A stretch of DNA of 64,000 bases from Profundicola chukchiensis (GTDB lineage Bacteria > Bacteroidota > Bacteroidia > Flavobacteriales > Weeksellaceae). Positions within the stretch are counted from its first letter, which is position 1; each line of letters opens with the position of its first letter. The notes beneath the pieces are model-generated. The model ran no database searches and was not told where the DNA came from. It saw only the letters and a program-made list of their open reading frames with translations. The DNA lies in contig NZ_JANAIE010000002.1 in the NCBI RefSeq assembly GCF_029664245.1, positions 310,001-374,000 on the forward strand, written 5' to 3'. A program made the translations under genes and the position numbers. Of the stretch, positions 7,301 through 48,140 are shown in pieces.

Positions 7301-8159
7301 CAAGCTGAACTCTTTTACCATTTCCTGGACTTTCAAAATTAATAAAGTAATATGCTTTATCCTCATACAAGTGCTTAGAATGTCTTGGGTAAATTGAATT
7401 AGAAATCCTATCGATCCCATTAGGTCCCTGCGCATAAAACAAGAAATAATCTGACTCGTCGAAACTACCATCCTCTAAACCTTCGGCATAGATCGCATTT
7501 TCTTGTAGTCCATTGTATCTAAAATCCCCTGGATTCTCTGGAAGCATCATTCCTCCATTACCATAAATTTTAAATTTACTGGGGTTAAAGTCTGTTGGTA
7601 TTCCATTTTGCCTTAAAAAAGCCTTATCTATTTTATATATACCTGTGGTATCAACGCTGATTTTATAGAACCTTCCATTGCTTGCATTTAAAACGGCTGG
7701 CGGTGGCGTACGATTCGAATTAGAGTTGGTAGTAATAGTACGGTTTGAATTAACTACTTCAAAACTTGTAATCTGATAGGCTCTATTTTCGTCGCGATAA
7801 AGTCCTGTAATATCTAAAGCTTTATGAATAGCTTTACCACCTTTCATGGTTTTAATCCAAAATTCTGGCTCTTTGGGAAGGTCGGTAAACTGCACATCTC
7901 CCAATTCTTTTCTTGATATTTCTTTGGACTGAATATTTTGGATTTCAAAATTATCAAGACCACTTGCTACTTCCTGATAATAAAAGTGGGCTATATTTTT
8001 TGAATCTAAATAATTTCCAGTTGATTGGATACTTGGAACAAAAACCGTATTTTCGCCAAACGAATTTATTTCTGACTTAGCTTTCCAAGTTAATTGAAAG
8101 CTCTGTGCAGCGAGTGAATTCAGCGAAAAGAGGAGGAGGATATATAAATAGTATTTCAT
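4323..8159 (-). CDS. porU: Type IX secretion system sortase PorU (C25 gingipain-like)
   Basis: A 1278-residue secreted protease of peptidase family C25. PorU removes the C-terminal sorting domain of T9SS cargo at the cell surface and attaches the cargo. Visible are a signal peptide (residues 1 to about 18), a long beta-rich N-terminal region, and the gingipain core with catalytic His in NYFGHGG (about 764) and catalytic Cys in TVTCDFTVWD (about 800). A C-terminal sorting-domain-like region follows (about 1173-1278), with WPNPFTNQT, the GK-V-I segment and KGVYIYK. Length is within the family range. Its partner porV follows directly; gldJ is divergent across 148 bases. Confidence 0.93.
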   Translation of the reverse strand: MKYYLYILLLFSLNSLAAQSFQLTWKAKSEINSFGENTVFVPSIQSTGNYLDSKNIAHFYYQEVASGLDNFEIQNIQSKEISRKELGDVQFTDLPKEPEFWIKTMKGGKAIHKALDITGLYRDENRAYQITSFEVVNSNRTITTNSNSNRTPPPAVLNASNGRFYKISVDTTGIYKIDKAFLRQNGIPTDFNPSKFKIYGNGGMMLPENPGDFRYNGLQENAIYAEGLEDGSFDESDYFLFYAQGPNGIDRISNSIYPRHSKHLYEDKAYYFINFESPGNGKRVQLENIQENAVANKGDFDQVLFYEKDNINIYNVGRQWFGQNLARDNDFNINLNHMGNMVGTGRIEYRYVGVNAGNTSVDVNLNGATVGTTSFAGGANALFEVRMGNSEFTGNLPFSLNLNLNNSSNPAASVYLDYVRLSFKQNLAFNNQQLGFRWLEDLNENTVYDFNLTGSPQMVWDVSDRVNAKMLVSEGGTYKFRTTSSNYKNEFIAFNKEQALSPKFVEQIDNQAISTISNVDYVIVTYPDYKAQAERLANAHQLYSGVNTAVVTTEQVYNEFGSGSQDISAIRDFFKMLYEHGNLKYALLFGDGSYDFKERIPNNTNMVPTYQSEASRGLGTTYVSDDFYGMLDDTDVGLHPLQIDIAIGRLPAATRAEAKVLVDKTLSYFSPDSNLGSPFGDWRSKIMFVVDDDNPGPNNAFHHTVDQDAAQFLEQNEPAYTLRKLYIDAFLQEGSSGGLRYPAVTDAIVNGIETGTLLVNYFGHGGVNGWAQERVFTPNEIRELTNFQQQFSRLPVFVTVTCDFTVWDIPQIDSGGEMLIKNPNGGSVAMLTTSREIAVVYGLGINDKIIRRIFQEDGDKFLPIGEALRLAKLDYNLGDEGLSINLIGDPLISLARPPREITIDKINGEPADAFTGTLRALDFVSFEGKVLNASNSGVDANFNGEITGTLFDKAVERTTLNNDGNIDVLEFTEQVDAIYRGTTSVENGNYKLEFYVPKDINFDVGEGKISLYAHNNEVDGMTYKNDILVGDINPDGVNDDEGPVVGLYMNNLNFANGGITDRSPYLLACVVDSTGINATGAGIGHDITYLLDGKISTTTVLNEYFEGGDASPCINPNVRDFQKGRVLYKLSDLELGEHTVTFRVWDINNNSTTETLDFVVMDNGDQQLHMNRLMNWPNPFTNQTYFHFEHNCPEALEVQVQIFSIAGKLVKTIRQQVSSAPFREGYRTDKFGIPWDGLDDFGNKIGKGVYIYKTIIKGANPESCKGTASETEKLVILK

Positions 8160-8242: not shown

Positions 8243-8273
8243 TTGCAATATTCGTTGTAAATTTTTTTCTTTG
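8243..8273 (+). promoter_or_regulatory. Putative promoter of gldJ
   Basis: TTG at 8243-8245 is followed after 20 bases by TTTCTTTG at 8266-8273, close to the Bacteroidota -33/-7 pattern. The gldJ start is 35 bases downstream. It nearly abuts the putative porU promoter, so the two T9SS/gliding units may be controlled together. Confidence 0.5.
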
Positions 8274-39537: not shown

Positions 39538-39550
39538 AGTGAATCTCAAC

Positions 39551-41476
39551 ATGATAGTTTTTGTGCGAATTTTCATTTCATATTTACTCCTTTTAATTTC
39601 GTTTTGCGCTTATGGCCAAGAAAACGAAAGGGAAGATTTTGATATTAAATTCCACGTAGAACAAAAGACGGACGACTTTAACACTGTCTTTGCACCTCTA
39701 TATTATGAAAAAGATACGCTGAGGTTTCAAGAATTATTGAAATTATCTAAAAGTAATGATTATGCCATAGGGGAAATTATTGCTTTAAATTTACTAGGAA
39801 CATATTATCGAGATCAGGCGCAGTATTTCAAATCCGTAGAACTACACAATCAAGCTCTCAATTTAGCAAAAGATAAAAACCTAACAGACGGAGTACTTTA
39901 CTCCAACAATATGTTGGGGGTTGTTTTCCGAAGAATGGATGATGTTCAAAAAGGCCTGAGATATCATTTTAAAGCCTTAGAAATTGCTGAAGAGGTTGAG
40001 GTTAAAAATGATTTCACCATTAGAAATACAGCAATCGCCGTAAATGGTATCGGGAACTCCTATTTAATACTTCAAGAATATGAGAGTGCGAAGAATCAAT
40101 TTCGAAGATCGTTTGAAATTGAAAAGTCCATTAACAATCATTTAGGCCTAGCTATTAATTATCAAAACATTGGATACTCTTTTGAGAAGTTAAACCAGCT
40201 AGATAGCGCACAACTAAATTATTTTCAATCGTTAAAAGAAAATAGTTTTATCAATAATGATATCGGTAAAATGATATGTTACAACAGCATCGGTCGTGTT
40301 TTTCTACTTAAAGAAAATTACAAAGAAGCCCTTGTTTTCTTAGATCGCGCTGAAGTCATTGCTGAAGAGACTGGTGATAGTTTTTATACGGCTACCATTT
40401 ATTACCTAAAAGGATTAACATTATTAAACCTTGATCGTAAAAAAGATTCCAAACGTTACTTGAGCAAAAGTGTTGAACTCAGTACAAAACATAATTTAAA
40501 ATCAAACCTTTCTGAGACTTATAACGCTTTTGCAACCTACTACGAACGTATTGGGGACTATCAAGAGGCTTTAAAGTATGTAAGAAAGAGCAAGGAAGTT
40601 GAGGCTGATTACTTAAATGAAAATAATCTAAGAATTAAAAATAATCTTGAGATTTCTTACGAAACAGAGCTAAAAGCCAATCAAATTTTAAATCTTAAAA
40701 AGGAAAAAAGTCAAATAATAGAGGAAGCTAGTAAAAAGCAAAGGACTATTTTATTTTTAATTTTATTATTAGCTGTACTTGCTTTATTAGGGATGCTATT
40801 TTATCAAAGAGATAAATTAAGAAAGGAAAAACAACTACTAGAGTTAGAACAAAAAGTTCTTCGCGCTCAGATGAATCCTCATTTTACCTTTAATGCGTTG
40901 AACTCAATTAAAACCTATATCATTTCACAGGATACTGAAGAAGCTGTAAAATACCTTAATAAATTCGCAAAACTTATTAGAGGGGTTTTATATTCTAGCG
41001 AAAAGAAGGTGGTTTCTTTGGAAGAAGAACTAGAAACTGTTGAATCCTATCTAAGTATAGAGCGCCTACGCTTTAACGATCCTATTGAATACCAATTAGA
41101 TATTAAAGATATTGATCCCGCCAATGTGGAAATTCCTCCATTGCTTCTACAACCTTTTATAGAGAATGCATTATGGCATGGACTCGCCCCCAAAAAAGGT
41201 GAGAAAATTATACGCTTAGAAATTTTTAAGCAATCTAAAAACATTGTCTGCATCAATATCATCGATAATGGTGTCGGTCGAAAAAACTCCAAGAGTTCTG
41301 ATAAGGAGAAAGGTTATAAATCTTTAGGTGTTGCTATTTCAAGAAAACGACTCAGCAATCATTTTAATATTAAGAATGATGACACCACTTTAATGTTTAC
41401 TGACCTCAAAGATGAGAACAATAATGCAACTGGCACTAAGGTTACAATTTGCATCCCTATTCGCTCACATGATTGA
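39551..41476 (+). CDS. TPR-containing LytS-type sensor histidine kinase
   Basis: About 641 residues. Signal sequence (IFISYLLLLISFCAYGQ), then a periplasmic TPR array (about 50-370), a coiled coil, one membrane helix (ILFLILLLAVLALLGMLFY, about 397-415), and a His_kinase/HATPase_c domain. The H-box NPHFTFNALNSIKTYI, N-box PFIENALWHGL and G-box IIDNGVGR are all intact, so it should be catalytically active. No regulator gene adjoins it; the nearest is the LytTR regulator 4.5 kb away. It probably phosphorylates that regulator, but the sequence does not prove this. Confidence 0.88.
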   Translation: MIVFVRIFISYLLLLISFCAYGQENEREDFDIKFHVEQKTDDFNTVFAPLYYEKDTLRFQELLKLSKSNDYAIGEIIALNLLGTYYRDQAQYFKSVELHNQALNLAKDKNLTDGVLYSNNMLGVVFRRMDDVQKGLRYHFKALEIAEEVEVKNDFTIRNTAIAVNGIGNSYLILQEYESAKNQFRRSFEIEKSINNHLGLAINYQNIGYSFEKLNQLDSAQLNYFQSLKENSFINNDIGKMICYNSIGRVFLLKENYKEALVFLDRAEVIAEETGDSFYTATIYYLKGLTLLNLDRKKDSKRYLSKSVELSTKHNLKSNLSETYNAFATYYERIGDYQEALKYVRKSKEVEADYLNENNLRIKNNLEISYETELKANQILNLKKEKSQIIEEASKKQRTILFLILLLAVLALLGMLFYQRDKLRKEKQLLELEQKVLRAQMNPHFTFNALNSIKTYIISQDTEEAVKYLNKFAKLIRGVLYSSEKKVVSLEEELETVESYLSIERLRFNDPIEYQLDIKDIDPANVEIPPLLLQPFIENALWHGLAPKKGEKIIRLEIFKQSKNIVCINIIDNGVGRKNSKSSDKEKGYKSLGVAISRKRLSNHFNIKNDDTTLMFTDLKDENNNATGTKVTICIPIRSHD

Positions 41477-41496
41477 GTAGTAAAGTAAATATATTT

Positions 41497-41709
41497 TTAG
41501 TCCTTTTCATTAATCAGCGAAACCTGTGGCTGAGCTAATAAGGAATCATTGATTTGTTTTTCAACAAAGACATTCGCCCTTTCAGTATCAACTTGATACT
41601 GATTATAATAAGTAGAGAAATCATCTGTTTGTTGATCACTTTCAAAAGCTGATGTGTGACAAGATGTGATAAATAAGAAGCATATAAGAGTAAAGAGTAG
41701 AGTTTTCAT
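41497..41709 (-). CDS. Small lipoprotein preceded by a LytTR-type box cluster
   Basis: 70 residues: MKTLLFTLICFLFITSC lipoprotein signal, then a short acidic, Gln-rich mature part (ESDQQTDDFSTYYNQYQ) with no recognised domain. It converges on the TPR kinase gene. Box cluster I and a weak -7 element lie upstream in the expected orientation, which suggests control by the LytTR regulator at 46008. Confidence 0.7.
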   Translation of the reverse strand: MKTLLFTLICFLFITSCHTSAFESDQQTDDFSTYYNQYQVDTERANVFVEKQINDSLLAQPQVSLINEKD

Positions 41710-41775
41710 AACATAAATAGGTTTTACTAGGTTGATTAATTAGTTTATATCTATAAGTTAGAGTTTTAGGTTATG

Positions 41776-41783
41776 TAAATATC
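41776..41783 (-). promoter_or_regulatory. -7-like element for the small lipoprotein
   Basis: The minus strand reads GATATTTA, a weak match to TAnnTTTG. It lies exactly 30 bases beyond the near edge of box cluster I, the same spacing as at cluster II. Confidence 0.45.
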
Positions 41784-41813
41784 AGCAATCTTTTCCTTAC
41801 TTAAAGAGGAAAA

Positions 41814-41867
41814 TGTATAAACGGTAGGAAAAACTGTATAAACTGCCTAAAACCGATGATTAAGTGT
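41814..41867 (-). promoter_or_regulatory. LytTR-type box cluster I (three boxes, 21-base period)
   Basis: Plus-strand units start at 41814 (TGTATAAACGGT), 41835 (TGTATAAACTGC) and 41856 (ATGATTAAGTGT, degenerate). The period is exactly 21 bases, two helical turns. Read on the minus strand the core is ACCGTTTATACA, in line with ACCGTT-type sites known for LytTR regulators. It points to the small lipoprotein gene. Confidence 0.75.
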
Positions 41868-41974
41868 AATTTTATCAATCTGAAGATTTAAAGTTTCTAG
41901 TTAAAGGCTGTGTGTTTTGTTGAATTTTAAAGCATAGAGTCAACTTTGATAACTCCGATTAAAATCAACTTCAT

Positions 41975-42000
41975 AAAAAAAGTGTCGATTTCTCGACACT
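41975..42000 (-). terminator. Minus-strand terminator with no annotated gene upstream
   Basis: AGTGTCGA, TTTC loop, TCGACACT; on the minus strand it runs into six or more T. No minus-strand gene ends here, so it marks the end of an unannotated transcript. Confidence 0.8.
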
Positions 42001-42164
42001 CCAAAAAAATTAAATAATATAAAAAATACTTTTACGCAAATAATTGCCGAATCATAAGATGAGATATCAACATTATATTTTAAAATCTACCACAATAAAT
42101 ATGGAAAACATTTACACTTTCATCATAATCACCGTGGTAGATTACAGAGTTAGTTGAATTCTCA
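41975..42164 (-). ncRNA. Candidate LytTR-controlled small RNA
   Basis: Box cluster II and a CATATTTG element (42170-42177) predict a minus-strand start near 42164; the hairpin at 41975-42000 ends it, giving about 190 nt. Minus-strand frames inside are at most 13 codons, so it is unlikely to code for protein. The perfect 10-bp inverted repeat AATCTACCAC (42084-42093) / GTGGTAGATT (42134-42143) closes a 40-base loop, giving a long-range stem. The start is approximate. With clusters I and II it explains most of the 672-base gap 41710-42381. Confidence 0.6.
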
Positions 42165-42169
42165 TAAGA

Positions 42170-42177
42170 CAAATATG
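42170..42177 (-). promoter_or_regulatory. -7-like element of the candidate small RNA
   Basis: The minus strand reads CATATTTG, one mismatch from TAnnTTTG, exactly 30 bases from the near edge of cluster II. Confidence 0.5.
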
Positions 42178-42207
42178 ATACATTTTTTCAATTCCTAGTT
42201 CAAGAAA

Positions 42208-42261
42208 TGTATGAAGTGTATGAAAAATTGTATAAACGGTCAGAAATCGTTGATTAAGTGC
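42208..42261 (-). promoter_or_regulatory. LytTR-type box cluster II (three boxes, 21-base period)
   Basis: Units start at 42208 (TGTATGAAGTGT), 42229 (TGTATAAACGGT) and 42250 (TTGATTAAGTGC). Period and orientation equal those of cluster I. It points leftward, away from proC and into a stretch without genes. Confidence 0.75.
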
Positions 42262-42381
42262 ATAAAACTCGTTTTTAACTGTATTTAAAATTTGACGAAA
42301 AATCTTTAGATTTCAATAATATATTAAGACTTCTAAGTCTCGCACTATTGTTGCAGTTAACTGAACAAAAACCAATCATTT

Positions 42382-43185
42382 ATGAAATTATTATTAATAG
42401 GCGCTGGAAATATGGGTTTAACCTATGCAGAAGGCATGCTAACCTCATCATTACTCAACGGGAATCCCATTCGCGTACATGATAAATCCCCAGAAGTGAA
42501 AGAGAAAATATTAAAAGATGATCGATTTATCTTCGAGGAGGATTTACAAACTGCACTTCCAGAAGCTGATATCGTTTTCTTAGCAGTGAAGCCCTATCAT
42601 AAAGAAGACGTTTTCGAAGAAATCAATGAGTTAGTGAAACCTGGGCAAATGTTTGTGTCGCTTATGGCGGGAGTAAACATCAAAACCTTATCAAAGGGCC
42701 TGAATGCTAAAAAGATCGTTAGAACCATGCCTAATCTGCCTGCACAGGTTGGAAAGGGTGTTACTTCCTTTACAGTCTCCAAGCATGTCTCTAAACTAGA
42801 AGCTAAGCTCGTGAAATCCTTACTGGACACGACTGGTGTTTCAGTTAAAGTGAAAAATGAAAAATTCATTGATGCTTCTACCGGAATTTCGGGTAGTGGC
42901 CCAGCTTATGTCTTTTATTTTATGGAATCTATGATGCAAGCCGCCAGAGACATGGGCTTTTCAGAGAAAGTATCTAAAGTGCTAGTTTCTCAAACTTTTG
43001 AAGGAGCTGTTGAGCTATTCAACCAAAATGACTTATCACCAAAAAAATGGATGGACCGAGTAGCATCTAAAGGTGGAACAACGCGAGCAGCGCTCGACTC
43101 AATGGAAGACAACAATATCCGGGAATTAATTCATGATGCTGCTTATGCCGCATTTGATAGAGCCGTTGAGCTTGGCAAAGAGTAA
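42382..43185 (+). CDS. proC: Pyrroline-5-carboxylate reductase
   Basis: 267 residues, cytoplasmic. It makes L-proline from pyrroline-5-carboxylate with NAD(P)H. The N-terminal Rossmann motif LLLIGAGNMGLTYAEGM, FLAVKPYHKEDV, VRTMPNLPAQVGKGVT, DASTGISGSGPAYVFYF and the C-terminal RVASKGGTTRAALDSM are all as in the family. A perfect palindrome CAGTTAACTG (42354-42363) lies 18 bases before the ATG and TATTGTTG at 42346 may be a -7 element. Cluster II points away from it. Confidence 0.92.
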   Translation: MKLLLIGAGNMGLTYAEGMLTSSLLNGNPIRVHDKSPEVKEKILKDDRFIFEEDLQTALPEADIVFLAVKPYHKEDVFEEINELVKPGQMFVSLMAGVNIKTLSKGLNAKKIVRTMPNLPAQVGKGVTSFTVSKHVSKLEAKLVKSLLDTTGVSVKVKNEKFIDASTGISGSGPAYVFYFMESMMQAARDMGFSEKVSKVLVSQTFEGAVELFNQNDLSPKKWMDRVASKGGTTRAALDSMEDNNIRELIHDAAYAAFDRAVELGKE

Positions 43186-43195
43186 TTAAAACAAC

Positions 43196-43229
43196 AAAGG
43201 CTTTTAGATAAACTAAAAGCCTTTATTTT
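43196..43229 (+). terminator. Terminator after proC
   Basis: AAAGGCTTTTAG, ATAAA loop, CTAAAAGCCTTT and a short T-rich tract. It may also serve the converging minus-strand operon that ends at 43264. Confidence 0.8.
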
Positions 43230-43263
43230 CGGACAAACAATCTTTTTCATCGAGTAGCATTAC

Positions 43264-43881
43264 TTAATTCAGGTCTGAGACATTTAGTTTTTCTATATAA
43301 GAATACAACTCGTCCGTTGTCATATTCTTTCCGTTTGCATTTACAAAAAACCGATCATCTACTGTAACTCTAATAGATGAGTCATTTTTATCTTTATAAT
43401 AAGTTTCAACAGATTGAACTCCATTTCGATCTACTATCTCTTCTTTTTTGGTATCAGATTCAGATTCAAAGTTACCATATAAGGCACCTAGCATACCCTG
43501 AGAGGCATATACTGCTGAACCAGTTTCACCCGCTCCGTCCATGATCGTAACCTCTAAAGACCTTTCTTCATTTTCATAAGACAACTCTCCAGTAGAGCCC
43601 ATAACTGTATTAAATTTATAGGAATTTCTTTTTAAATCCCCTAAATCATCAGGCATCCAATCTTTAAATTCATCACTGGTAATCGGAGTTAACTCTTTTA
43701 GTGATTCCATTCGAGATTCGATATTCTTGGCATTCTTTTCCATATTTGAAACATTTCCTACCATCGTAGAAGCTGTATTCACTTTGCTTTTAACATCCTT
43801 AATTTTATCCATCGTCTCGCTCTCACATGAGTAAGTTATGACCAACATTAAGGCAAATAAGCTTAAATATACTTTTTTCAT
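43264..43881 (-). CDS. Hypothetical lipoprotein, last gene of the OmpA operon
   Basis: 205 residues. Lipoprotein signal LMLVITYSC, then a predicted coiled coil (ETMDKIKDVKSKVNTASTMV region, about 22-65) and a compact domain with SLEVTIMDGAGETGSA. No known family recognised by me. It lies 29 bases after the membrane-protein gene, so it is likely in the operon led by the OmpA-like gene and under box cluster III. Confidence 0.7.
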   Translation of the reverse strand: MKKVYLSLFALMLVITYSCESETMDKIKDVKSKVNTASTMVGNVSNMEKNAKNIESRMESLKELTPITSDEFKDWMPDDLGDLKRNSYKFNTVMGSTGELSYENEERSLEVTIMDGAGETGSAVYASQGMLGALYGNFESESDTKKEEIVDRNGVQSVETYYKDKNDSSIRVTVDDRFFVNANGKNMTTDELYSYIEKLNVSDLN

Positions 43882-43910
43882 TTTCTTTAATTTTTAATTG
43901 AATTATTCTT

Positions 43911-44240
43911 TTAAATACCCTCTAACCATTCGTTATACTTCTCCCCTAATACTGGAACAGGCTCCATTTTTCCGTTAATGGCATTCATTAAACCCATGAT
44001 CCAAAGAAAAATTATGAAAAGTGAGCCTAGAATGGATATAATCCAACCTATAATCGGTATCATTCCGACGATCATTAAGGCTAAACTCGTTAGTCCAATT
44101 CCGAGCGACTGTCGAATATGGTAGCTGGTAAGCTCTTCTTTATCCTTATTTGAAATAAAGGCGATAATCAATCCTATAATAGTAATGTATGCAATAATAT
44201 GCATTGAACTATTAGCTTTTGTAGTTGTTTGTGTTTCCAT
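43911..44240 (-). CDS. DUF4870-like membrane protein
   Basis: 109 residues with about three membrane helices: HIIAYITIIGLIIAFI, a middle GLTSLALMIVGMIPIIGWII and FIIFLWIMGLMNAINGK. The motif YHIRQSLGI between helices is typical of the DUF4870/Tic20-like family, of unknown function. It lies 12 bases after the OmpA-like gene. Confidence 0.78.
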   Translation of the reverse strand: METQTTTKANSSMHIIAYITIIGLIIAFISNKDKEELTSYHIRQSLGIGLTSLALMIVGMIPIIGWIISILGSLFIIFLWIMGLMNAINGKMEPVPVLGEKYNEWLEGI

Positions 44241-44252
44241 TTTGTTTAGTTT

Positions 44253-45542
44253 TTATTGTTTTTTAAATTCTACTCTTCTATTTTTTGCTTTTCCTAAAGA
44301 CGTTGAGTTGCTAGCAATAGGCTCTGATTCTCCTTTTCCTACAACATTAATTCTATCAGAGTCAATATTGTATTTAGTAATTAAATATTTCTTAACCGCG
44401 CTAGCTCTATCTAGAGATAATTTTTGATTTGTATTGGCATCACCATCACTATCAGTATGCCCAATGATTGTTAGTTTCCAATTATCAGATGAATTTTGCA
44501 TGAGTTCACCAACTTCATTTAATATCGAGTTAGAAGAAGGTTCTATATAATCAGATCCAGTTGCAAATAATATATCACTAGAAGAAAAACTCCCTTTCTC
44601 CATCAGGTCTTTTTGAATACTACTTCTTCTATCTGTATCGCCCGCTGCAATTACTACATTCGAGAAATAGAAATAGTTATAAATAGTATCTCCATCTCCA
44701 TGAGTCATAGCGTTAATTATTAAATTGTTTGCATACTCAGGTTTAAATACTTTTGGCATATCAGATACTTTAGTACCATCCACATAAACACGTACGCGCT
44801 CATTATTATTAACTTGAATAGCCACATGAACTTTTTTATCAAAGGGATATTCATATCCCGTTTTCATCCAACCCGTAGTTCTATTACCTACTTCAAGAGA
44901 AGGTTGTTGTTTATGACTATAGAACATAACTCCAAATCCGTCCGTTGAAGACATAGAATGATGAAATCCTTTCTTATTTTCGCTAAACCCAAGCCCTGCG
45001 ATAGCGTATCGCACATCGCTCGGAAGGATTATATCCATTTCGAAAGTGTAATTTGCAGGCATTGGCTTAGGTAACTCTAAATTGATTACACTCTTAGCTG
45101 GAACCTTCAACCATTTTCCTGGAATTCCAGATAGTTTCTTAATATCTCCACCTAAATTCGTGTCCCACTTAGCCGGAAAATCTCCAATGGCATCTTGTAA
45201 AAAATCATCTTGAAAGATTATTTGATCACCACGCACAAAGCCAACTTCATTCACACCAATTTCTTTTAATGATGTATCCTCTAAACTTCCTCCTGTTGGT
45301 TGAGGGTTATTAGGGCTTTGCTGATTTGTAGTTTTAGACTTTTTCGATTTAGATTTCTTTTTCCCTAAAACAGTATCAATGGCATCATCTGTAGTCGCAG
45401 AGGCCTCTCTTTGAGATCGATTTTCTAAAGTTCTTTCTACGCCACGTTCAGCAGCCTTTTTTACTTTTTTCCAAATTTGCGCATCAGCCTGAGTACTTAT
45501 TGACAAGCTAAAAACGAGTGCTATAATTATTTTAAGTTTCAT
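44253..45542 (-). CDS. Jelly-roll/LamG-like and OmpA-domain envelope protein
   Basis: About 429 residues from ATG 45542. Signal peptide (IIALVFSLSISTQADAQ), a basic linker rich in Lys and Ser, a beta-rich region (about 115-310) that looks like a concanavalin/LamG-type jelly roll (YTFEMDIILPSDVRYAIAGL, VRVYVDGTKVSDMP), and a C-terminal OmpA domain (LTIIGHTDSDGDANTNQKLS, RASAVKKYL, GKGESEPIASNS, NRRVEF) that binds peptidoglycan. It leads a three-gene operon and has LytTR-type box cluster III upstream. Confidence 0.85.
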   Translation of the reverse strand: MKLKIIIALVFSLSISTQADAQIWKKVKKAAERGVERTLENRSQREASATTDDAIDTVLGKKKSKSKKSKTTNQQSPNNPQPTGGSLEDTSLKEIGVNEVGFVRGDQIIFQDDFLQDAIGDFPAKWDTNLGGDIKKLSGIPGKWLKVPAKSVINLELPKPMPANYTFEMDIILPSDVRYAIAGLGFSENKKGFHHSMSSTDGFGVMFYSHKQQPSLEVGNRTTGWMKTGYEYPFDKKVHVAIQVNNNERVRVYVDGTKVSDMPKVFKPEYANNLIINAMTHGDGDTIYNYFYFSNVVIAAGDTDRRSSIQKDLMEKGSFSSSDILFATGSDYIEPSSNSILNEVGELMQNSSDNWKLTIIGHTDSDGDANTNQKLSLDRASAVKKYLITKYNIDSDRINVVGKGESEPIASNSTSLGKAKNRRVEFKKQ

Positions 45543-45698
45543 TTTGTTAGGTTTTATTAAGAACATTTACCCAAGGAATTAGGTTGGTTAGTTAGTCGAT
45601 ATACGTTTTATAGGAATTTCCTTGGGCGATGTTCATAAATTTAATTAATCTTATTCCATACGAAATTGAGGAAAATTTGACCTATTTAGAGCAAAAAT

Positions 45699-45752
45699 TG
45701 TATGAAGTGCATGATTTATTGTATAAAATGCACGAAATCGATGATTAACGGT
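45699..45752 (-). promoter_or_regulatory. LytTR-type box cluster III upstream of the OmpA operon
   Basis: Units start at 45699 (TGTATGAAGTGC), 45720 (TGTATAAAATGC) and 45741 (ATGATTAACGGT), again at exactly 21 bases. Thirty bases beyond the near edge the minus strand reads CAATTTCG (45661-45668), a poor -7 match at the conserved spacing. The OmpA-like gene starts 156 bases downstream. Confidence 0.72.
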
Positions 45753-45903
45753 TTTTTGCAAATATTAATTTTAGCCCAAAATCACCTACTTCTATCGTTT
45801 TAGTAGGTTGAAATTTAATTTTAAATCAAATAATTGATTAGATTTAATGGTGAGAAAGCCAATTTTATAGTTCTTAAAGCAGATTTTTAAATAGATGGTT
45901 TGA

Positions 45904-45957
45904 ACCGTTTATACATGAAATCCTACCGTTTATACTGGAATTCATACCGTTCATACA
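45904..45957 (+). promoter_or_regulatory. LytTR-type box cluster IV upstream of the regulator gene
   Basis: ACCGTTTATACA at 45904, ACCGTTTATACT at 45925 and ACCGTTCATACA at 45946, the cleanest cluster. The orientation is reversed relative to clusters I-III, so it faces the plus-strand regulator gene. TACTTTTA at 45987-45994, 29 bases on, is the likely -7 element. This suggests autoregulation. Clusters III and IV fill the 465-base gap 45543-46007. Confidence 0.8.
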
Positions 45958-46007
45958 ATTTAATGGACACTTGGTTTATTTTTTAATACTTTTAATCAAA
46001 ATTGACA

Positions 46008-46751
46008 ATGCGCTGTATAATAATAGATGACGAAGTAAATGCTATAAAAGCACTACGTTGGGAGATTGAAAATTATCTACCAGAATTAACTATTGTATCA
46101 ACATTTAATTCTGCAATTGACGCTTTAGAATATTTAAAGTCTCATCCAGCTCCTGATTTAGTATTTCTAGACATTGAGATGCCAGAAATGAATGGCTTCG
46201 ATTTTATTAATAGTGTTCCAGATAGAGAGTTTGAAATTGTTTTCACTACCGCCTATAGCGAATTCGCATTAGAAGCAATTAAAAAAGAAGCGGTTGATTA
46301 TTTATTAAAACCGATCGATTCTGAGGATTTACGAAAAGCCGTTGAAAAATTAAAGAAAAGATTAGCGCCTATTCAAAAGCAAGAGAATATAACCGAAAAT
46401 TTAAAAGCTATTAAAGGTTATAATTCAAATGAATCTGATAAGGTTAAGATTAGTTTTGATGGTAAGATTAATTTCATGAACCCTGAGGAGATTGTCTATT
46501 TAATGAGTGATGGAAACTATTCTAAGCTTTATTTACAAGATGGCAAAGAGATTCTATTGACATTTAAACTCAAGGAAATGCAACAAGAATTACCAGAAAA
46601 ATATTTCTTTAGAGTGCATAAGTCATACATAATTAATGTTCAAAAAATAAGTTCGTTTTATAAAAACGAGAACTTTATAGTTTTAAATGAAAAGATAAAC
46701 ATTCCTTTAGCTAGAAGTAGAAAGGCAGAGTTTATAAGGAAATATTTATAG
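46008..46751 (+). CDS. LytTR-family response regulator
   Basis: About 247 residues. Receiver domain with acidic pair IIIDDE (7-8), phospho-acceptor Asp55 in LVFLDIEMPEMNG, Thr/Ser at FTTAYSE and Lys in LLKPID. A LytTR DNA-binding domain follows (about 150-247): KISFDGKINFMNPEEIVYL, SDGNYSKLYL, YFFRVHKSYIIN and IPLARSRK. ATG 46008 is chosen over TTG 46002. Cluster IV lies upstream, and a membrane kinase-like gene follows after three bases. Confidence 0.9.
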   Translation: MRCIIIDDEVNAIKALRWEIENYLPELTIVSTFNSAIDALEYLKSHPAPDLVFLDIEMPEMNGFDFINSVPDREFEIVFTTAYSEFALEAIKKEAVDYLLKPIDSEDLRKAVEKLKKRLAPIQKQENITENLKAIKGYNSNESDKVKISFDGKINFMNPEEIVYLMSDGNYSKLYLQDGKEILLTFKLKEMQQELPEKYFFRVHKSYIINVQKISSFYKNENFIVLNEKINIPLARSRKAEFIRKYL

Positions 46752-46754
46752 AAA

Positions 46755-48140
46755 TTGGTTTTTGAATTACACATATTCCTTTGGCATATTACCATGGCAG
46801 TCTTATTTGTTTATGGTTGTATCTCAATGGCATTGTTTTTCACCTCAAGGAGAAACTTATTCTTGTTTTATTCACTCTATTTGTTTCTTCTTTCCATTTA
46901 TATATTTGATAAAAACAGCTATACTTTTCAGATTCCAGCCAATACTTTTACCAAGATTTTCAATTGGTATATACAAGTTATTTATCATGTGGCTTACATA
47001 TGGTTCAGCGTTTCGTTTGTCAATTACCTAACACATTATCCTGGGCATAGAAAGGTTATAAAACAGTATTCATATATACTCCTTGGCTTAGGAAGTATCA
47101 TGTTCGTTTACACGCTAATCACCGCCAATGTTGTTTTATATATAGACTACTTTACATATATTCACGTGCCGCTGATAATTCTGGGAATTATTTATGGAAT
47201 TTATAAAACCTTATTGGTTAAAGAGCCGATGACGTCCTTCTATTTTCCAGGCCTGATATCTTATATCATATTTTCACTTAGTGCGCTATATCTTACACTT
47301 TACCCCGACCCAAGCATTTCATTTGAGCCAATATCGTATTTATATATTGGGATTTTGATTGAAACAAGTTTGTTTGCGATTGGTATTGGATATTATACAC
47401 AACAAATTTATTCTAAATCTCTTTTGGTTGAAAAAGAACTGAATACTGCACAAAATGAATTAAGAGAAAAATTAAGATTACAACTAGATCAAACGGAATT
47501 AGAAAACACGATTAGCAAGCTTAAGATTAACTCACTACAAGGCCAAATGAATTCTCATTTCATATTCAATATTCTGAATTCTATTAAAACCTTTATAGCT
47601 GAGAATAATCAAGAAGCTGCCATTAATTTTTTAAATAAATACGCCAAATTAGTGCGAGAGTATTTAAAAGGGAGTGATCTTGAGACCAATGATTTAGAGG
47701 ATGAAATCAACACCGTTAAACTTTATGTTGAATTAGAAAATATGCGCTTAAATAATTCACTTGATTTTAAACTAAACATCAGCGAGGAACTCAATCTGAG
47801 ATCCATAAAAATTCCTACGCATGTTTTAATTCCTTTTATTGAAAACTCTATTTGGAAAGGATTATTTAGACAAAAAGAGCAGAAATTTCTTTCTCTAGAT
47901 ATTGGAAAAGAGAATAATATGGTTGTGATTCGTATAGAAGATAATGGGATTTATAGCGCTCAAGAGTCCTCGAGAAATAATTTAAACTTGGTAAAGAGCA
48001 TGCAAGTGGCTGAAAAGAAGATCGATACCTTCAATAAATCCAATGAAGACAAAATCTCATATTATCATGAACTCAAAGAGGATGGCGGAATTCAAAAACT
48101 TGAAGTTCCAATACCATCCTCTTTTAAAATTCAGATTTAG
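46755..48140 (+). CDS. Membrane LytS-type histidine kinase homologue with degenerate ATP site
   Basis: 461 residues from TTG 46755, or 448 from ATG 46794; the TTG start completes the first membrane helix and lies three bases after the regulator stop. About six to seven hydrophobic helices (1-225) precede a coiled coil and a His_kinase-like region. The H-box reads NSHFIFNILNSIKTFI (Pro replaced by Ser) and the N-box PFIENSIWKGL is kept, but the G-box reads EDNGIYSAQE, lacking the second Gly of DxGxG. It may be a pseudokinase, phosphatase or modulator. Confidence 0.8.
   Translation: MVFELHIFLWHITMAVLFVYGCISMALFFTSRRNLFLFYSLYLFLLSIYIFDKNSYTFQIPANTFTKIFNWYIQVIYHVAYIWFSVSFVNYLTHYPGHRKVIKQYSYILLGLGSIMFVYTLITANVVLYIDYFTYIHVPLIILGIIYGIYKTLLVKEPMTSFYFPGLISYIIFSLSALYLTLYPDPSISFEPISYLYIGILIETSLFAIGIGYYTQQIYSKSLLVEKELNTAQNELREKLRLQLDQTELENTISKLKINSLQGQMNSHFIFNILNSIKTFIAENNQEAAINFLNKYAKLVREYLKGSDLETNDLEDEINTVKLYVELENMRLNNSLDFKLNISEELNLRSIKIPTHVLIPFIENSIWKGLFRQKEQKFLSLDIGKENNMVVIRIEDNGIYSAQESSRNNLNLVKSMQVAEKKIDTFNKSNEDKISYYHELKEDGGIQKLEVPIPSSFKIQI

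Follow-up and report, generated by a model that had tools for sequence, protein, structure and literature searches.

Arrays of direct repeats around a LytTR regulator

AgrA of Staphylococcus is a LytTR response regulator that activates its own operon and the structured regulatory RNA RNAIII. LytTR proteins usually read a pair of 9-bp repeats with a spacer of about 12 bp (PMC2714321, PMC6193735), and paired repeats with a period of about 21 bp are the usual arrangement (PMC2714321, PMC4847170, PMC6193735). As far as the available parts of these sources go, promoters of the PlnC/PlnD, YpdB and HdrR types carry two such direct repeats just upstream of the promoter, with cooperative binding and, in the Pln and HdrR systems, positive autoregulation (PMC2714321, PMC4847170, PMC6193735). 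Three direct repeats read by a LytTR protein are described for CoxC of Afipia carboxidovorans and RcoM1 of Paraburkholderia xenovorans, both one-component carbon monoxide (CO) sensors; in the available part of that report the repeats are evenly spaced about two helical turns apart, and CoxC, a repressor, needs all three of its TTCNNGCA-type boxes at 18-21-bp intervals (PMC11347149). Here we analysed a 64,000-nt stretch of Profundicola chukchiensis DNA (contig NZ_JANAIE010000002.1, positions 310,001 to 374,000; hereafter the window), in which the gene for a response regulator with a receiver (REC) and a LytTR domain (46008-46751, + strand) lies among four arrays of direct repeats.

Twelve related 12-base boxes between positions 41814 and 45957 form four groups of three with a spacing of exactly 21 bases in each, and all 12 were found where a preliminary description of this DNA had placed them. 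Array A (41814-41867, - strand; boxes at 41814, 41835 and 41856) faces a small putative lipoprotein gene, array B (42208-42261, -; 42208, 42229 and 42250) a gene-free stretch, array C (45699-45752, -; 45699, 45720 and 45741) the operon of an OmpA-domain protein, and array D (45904-45957, +; 45904, 45925 and 45946) the operon of the regulator, pointing to autoregulation. A possible weak fourth box accompanies array B at 42271-42282. The four triples scored 41.1-51.1 bits each with a matrix built from their own boxes, whereas no triple exceeded 10.3 bits in 20 Markov shuffles of the window and no alternative period from 13 to 39 gave more than 16.2 bits. The window contained 61 single sites with up to three mismatches to ACCGTTTATACA where 65 were expected, so such sites are not enriched and the signal sits in the phased triples. 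Because the matrix was trained on the boxes that it scores, the independent test was a genome search for further arrays, and six more, four in this genome and two in a congener, were recovered by a model built without them.

The genome carrying the window (G000) comprises 2.62 Mb in 108 contigs. A first model (R1), which used sequence alone and was derived from the four arrays of the window and two of the congener, found eight arrays in this genome at 27.3 bits or above, four of them outside its training set, with the next match at 15.3 bits. Another model (R2), for which 12 arrays were used together with their 38 downstream bases, returned the same eight at 53.9 bits or above and the next match at 15.0 bits, a match that is partly by construction. 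The arrays outside the window are C98:76029 (-), C21:101477 (+), C21:106722 (+) and C87:51030 (+, four boxes). The small neighbourhood regulon that had been proposed is not supported, as four of the eight arrays lie on other contigs. Arrays scattered over the genome without link to promoters had been named as a possible refutation, but those found are promoter-linked genome-wide. Over 198 kb of this genome scanned, 25 boxes reached at least 11 bits, 21 of which lie inside the eight arrays, and no isolated box pair passed the scan in 13 sources. The 12 clear arrays, eight here and four in the congener G001, consist of three RCMNTTNATACA-like boxes each, or four at C87, and not of the two repeats usual at LytTR sites. 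When three-copy repeats were sought de novo within 400 bp upstream of LytTR genes, nothing resembling the boxes emerged. The same kind of search in 108 whole loci, with a threshold of 9 of 12 columns, gave seven matches at period 21 (other periods 0-3); of these, array D, C21a (one of the two C21 arrays) and an array in genome G026 are of this kind.

An octamer resembling TAnnTTTG starts 29 or 30 nt past the near box in the 12 arrays of the two genomes. Over these arrays it averages 5.08 of 6 matches, with single arrays ranging from 4 to 6, while shuffles (n = 1000) gave no more than 3.75 at any offset, which bears out the -7-like element proposed earlier. In the window it reads GATATTTA at array A (41783-41776, -; weak, 4/6 matches), CATATTTG at B (42177-42170, -; 5/6), TCAATTTC at C (45669-45662, -; weak, only 4/6) and TACTTTTA at D (45987-45994, +; 5/6). 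TAnnTTTG at -12 to -5 is given as the sigma-A -7 box of Flavobacterium psychrophilum in the part of the source available (PMC9723704). A bias of far boxes to TTAATCA and of near boxes to TTCATACA had also been noted. Both hold in the window (3/4 arrays each), yet over the 12 arrays TTAATCA occurs in 3 far boxes (4 if the outermost, fourth box of C87 is counted as the far box) and TTCATACA in 5 near boxes, so that position-specific box types were rejected as a general rule.

Direct repeats of 9-11 bp with a period of about 21 bp near a promoter are the features of LytTR operators, and the box and period of the window fit the published site, which suggests LytTR binding, as the preliminary description had supposed. 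Its impression that triple-box control was undescribed is superseded, since CoxC and RcoM1 have been published and the triple operator as such is not new (PMC11347149, as far as available). The arrays of this genome share the three evenly spaced direct repeats with these systems, but probably belong to a REC-LytTR response regulator, use ACCGTTTATACA boxes and stand at eight promoters; the combination of a TTCNNGCA or TTNNNGCN box and a CO-sensing LytTR protein was not found here. In the open-licence PMC literature, mostly searched at listing level, we found neither a triple operator for a REC-LytTR response regulator nor a LytTR operator or regulon in Bacteroidota.

Genes and gene-free stretches facing the arrays

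The regulator matches Pfam Response_reg (73.2 bits) and LytTR (69.4 bits), both above cut-off, has no further Pfam domain, and is by this composition a LytTR response regulator. Its operon continues with a 7TMR-DISM sensor kinase of the LytS type (46755-48140, +; Pfam His_kinase and 7TMR-DISM_7TM). Array A faces a 70-residue putative lipoprotein (41497-41709, -; lipobox by inspection). The operon behind array C begins with the OmpA-domain protein (44253-45542, -; Pfam OmpA, start at 45542 by inspection), followed by a DUF4870-like membrane protein (43911-44240, -; Pfam just under cut-off, 24.2 versus 25 bits) and a 205-residue protein without Pfam or NCBIfam match (43264-43881, -). The lipoprotein, the OmpA operon and the non-coding stretch had been named as targets, and the data support all three as putative targets. 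A perfect 9-base inverted repeat, CCCAAGGAA / TTCCTTGGG (45570-45626), lies between array C and the OmpA gene, in what is presumably the leader.

Outside the window, both C21 arrays and C98 precede genes for proteins with the Por_Secre_tail sorting domain of the type IX secretion system (T9SS) plus GEVED, NIDO or TSP_3/MopE domains (L160:7596-9860, L160:12838-14886 and L159:5736-7715; Pfam over cut-off), which places these proteins among T9SS cargo. The whole genome has 48 Por_Secre_tail matches, 45 of them above cut-off, so such targets at three of the four distal arrays are more than chance would give. However, C21a and C21b do not count as independent, as they share a cluster and their sorting domains are similar. 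Neither the scan nor inspection by eye showed an array upstream of three further genes there, which start at L160:3396, 10676 and 15400. In the C98 gene the start codon and a signal-peptide-like stretch are out of frame with the remainder, a run of about ten T separating the two frames (L159 ~7915-7966), which reflects either phase variation or an assembly error.

Four arrays over the two genomes, namely B and C87 here and C2:182533 and C2:176600 in the congener, face gene-free stretches with an intrinsic terminator. A possible small RNA behind B would occupy 41973-42165 (-), with a 10-pair terminator hairpin at 42002-41979. For its 192 nt the predicted folding energy is -50.4 kcal/mol (z -5.31, reached by 0/200 shuffles; z -3.95 with the terminator removed). 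The 216 nt behind C87, flanked by a divergent glutamate dehydrogenase gene and a convergent SufB/D-type gene, gave z -5.96, or -2.34 (3/200 shuffles) without the 15-pair terminator. Array C2:182533 is followed by 84 nt including a terminator (z -2.39, 6/200 shuffles). At C2:176600 the array is decayed (22.7 bits), with three boxes recognised by eye at 21 bp and TATCTTTG. Beyond it come a terminator and, at a distance of 370 bp, a gene whose product has a T9SS sorting domain. By eye, no ATG-started frame of at least 20 codons lies on the read strand behind B, C87 or C2:182533. Predicted small RNAs appear the likeliest reading of the gene-free stretches. B, C87 and C2:182533 combine a promoter-like element, structure and a predicted terminator, and C2:176600 an array and a terminator. 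Rfam gave nothing in window 41400-46100 at E values up to 1 and just a tRNA in loci L161 and L162; the candidate RNA behind B had matches in 6 of 58 other genomes, all of 23-53 bases and at E 1.4e-4 or weaker.

We hold it unlikely, though well worth weighing, that these arrays act on the other neighbour instead: B on proC, C87 on the glutamate dehydrogenase gene, and C2:176600 on the T9SS-domain gene, which it may drive through a long leader. The proC and dehydrogenase genes are divergent from their arrays and both concern glutamate, the product of the gene beyond C2:176600 shares a sorting domain with other targets, and at C87 and C2:182533 the terminator might equally belong to the convergent gene. 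The octamer at the usual 29 or 30 nt and the direction of the arrays, however, point to the gene-free side. Terminator hairpins are in excess at C87 (2 found, 0.1 expected) and at the two congener sites (1 versus 0.2 and 1 versus 0.1), while the 4.7-kb region around B shows no excess (3 versus 2.0).

Proposed mode of action

In the explanation of the whole that we consider the best, and quite probably right, the REC-LytTR regulator has the arrays as its operators and would activate sigma-A promoters from them. The kinase of its operon would phosphorylate the regulator, and perhaps the nearby LytS-type kinase with tetratricopeptide repeats (TPR; 39539-41476, +; Pfam) would as well. The TPR kinase probably feeds the window regulator, because no regulator gene adjoins it and because of its linkage in the congener; no array was found upstream of it. 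Three LytS-type kinases in the genome compare with two full LytTR regulators; one further LytTR fragment is broken. The phosphorylated protein would bind three, sometimes four, ACCGTTTATACA-type boxes in a row on one DNA face, 21 bp apart and perhaps cooperatively, and the bound row would end just upstream of the -33 region and activate promoters of the TAnnTTTG type. By activating its own operon the regulator would create positive feedback. Further activated would be the OmpA/DUF4870 operon, the small lipoprotein, three T9SS-sorting-domain proteins elsewhere in the genome, and the two gene-free stretches that resemble small structured RNAs.

Activation is read from geometry. With the octamer set at -12 to -5, the near box spans about -53 to -41 and ends upstream of the -33 region, the usual place of an activator, which suits activation. 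Repression, as by CoxC, which also works on three repeats, seems improbable to us: the CoxC sites overlap the -35 box according to the available part of the report, whereas the near box here ends 29-30 nt before the -7 octamer (PMC11347149). PlnC/PlnD, YpdB and HdrR-type promoters resemble the arrays in period and place, but have two repeats against three or four here (PMC2714321, PMC4847170, PMC6193735, as far as available).

Because the eight promoters were listed along with their box, spacing and -7 position, the regulon is directly testable. The arrays raise the question why a LytTR regulator able to use two sites keeps three, and they yield candidate small RNAs together with a possible control route to T9SS-exported proteins. 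A more far-reaching idea, which we put forward tentatively and with some doubt, is an obligate row of at least three protomers in which operator length is part of the code and T9SS/envelope genes are coupled to small RNAs, as in an RNAIII-like circuit outside Firmicutes. It would differ from AgrA/RNAIII in that the RNAs here are predicted ones with no Rfam match, and no peptide signal was seen.

Conservation in relatives and the identity of the binding protein

The conservation expected upstream of orthologues was observed for the regulator. In G001 the regulator orthologue (62% identity) is faced by a triple array at exactly 21 bp. A second G001 array, with spacing 20, 21, reads divergently toward a DUF4870-like gene; this gene has 62% identity to that of the window and is followed by a small putative lipoprotein with a weak match to the 70-residue one (E 2e-4); a counterpart of the TPR kinase (58%) adjoins the locus. 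The gene order is rearranged relative to G001: in the window a separate array faces the lipoprotein gene, and the OmpA operon includes the DUF4870-like gene. Array C12:48001 of G001 (46.1 bits) precedes a 258-residue protein without Pfam match. At C7:69358 (19.7 bits), three box-like units at 21 bp lack a good octamer by eye and were excluded from array counts. The third same-genus genome, G002, has no close regulator orthologue (best 32%) and no array.

Scanning 197 family genomes gave 24 with a match at E 0.01 or better, and only G000 and G001 exceeded 40 bits; G026 came next with 25.8 bits. From the weak matches in the other 21 only that of G079 was examined, and it falls inside a coding frame. 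In G026 (L209 8900-9391), four ACCGTTCATG-type boxes at 21 bp lie upstream of a 196-residue protein and adjoin a propeller kinase and a LytTR regulator that has diverged (receiver score 26.4, under the cut-off of 30.2); multi-box arrays may therefore recur with another LytTR protein. A second group further up in L209 has two ACCGTTCATG boxes.

Four orthologues with 43-44% identity (two Maribacter, Allomuricauda and Flagellimonas) all have a diverged upstream triple with spacing 20, 21, located 53-61 nt before the start and reached by 0/60 shuffles. The autoregulation suggested earlier from array D gains from this: an array lies before the G001 orthologue and these four. None of the other 52 LytTR loci in the test came under 3/60 shuffles. 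The test covered 56 of 80 loci, those left out by hand being mainly non-Bacteroidota, receiver-only or short-contig loci, together with L010, L048, L050 and L081, all Bacteroidota. Counted by eye, 19 of 20 invariant columns among the four Flavobacteriaceae orthologues fall inside boxes or the -7 box. In a 40-row tree the six array-bearing regulators fall into a single clade (support 95/84, bootstrap not fully settled) and require one change, with 0/500 shuffles as low; the labels cover window-type arrays only, and the G026 row with its own array and the congener C7 row with its pair-like match stand outside the group.

Several observations weigh against the proposed explanation. The -7 octamer is weak at arrays A and C, the spacing of 20, 21 in a congener array shows that exactly 21 is not essential, and in the four distant orthologues the outer boxes are weak, some below 0 bits. 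The target sets of G001 and the window differ save for the regulator and the DUF4870/lipoprotein genes, and G001 lacks a full-length counterpart of the window OmpA protein. In the four Flavobacteriaceae genomes, a model of their own four arrays found no array beyond that of the regulator (other matches at most 19.3 bits), so the regulon there may be the regulator alone. Finally, a second full LytTR regulator, at C43:203139 and 36% identical to the window regulator, could bind the arrays, alone or jointly, and a weak array-like match (20.1 bits, a pair of related boxes) precedes the congener C7 regulator operon. Binding by C43 is nevertheless still less probable than repression in our judgement: arrays directly precede the regulator in the window, the orthologue in the congener and four more orthologues, the paralogues fall outside that clade, and no array match at E 5 or better precedes the C43 operon. 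That the arrays are chance or a functionless low-complexity repeat, an idea suggested by the abundance of A/T repeats in low-G+C DNA, is refuted as far as sequence can decide by the gap between 10 bits in shuffles and 41-51 bits in the arrays, the invariant columns and the constant downstream spacing over 12 arrays.

Relatives have up to 46 protein matches to the window regulator in one genome, some perhaps receiver-only. A third LytTR match of G000, C32:86390, was rejected as a functional regulator; it is broken, with stops surrounding it in all frames. This fragment (L117 8391-8582), perhaps a lost regulator, has a single box (11.8 bits) at 8260, about 130 bp before it. In Maribacter and Allomuricauda, genes for collagen-like (GxxGxxG) putative lipoproteins lie on the opposite strand near or beside the regulator orthologue (L004 8032-8649, L005 8512-9126 and L006 9100-9756), and that of L005 is faced by a weak array-like triple of 3.8 bits, about chance level.

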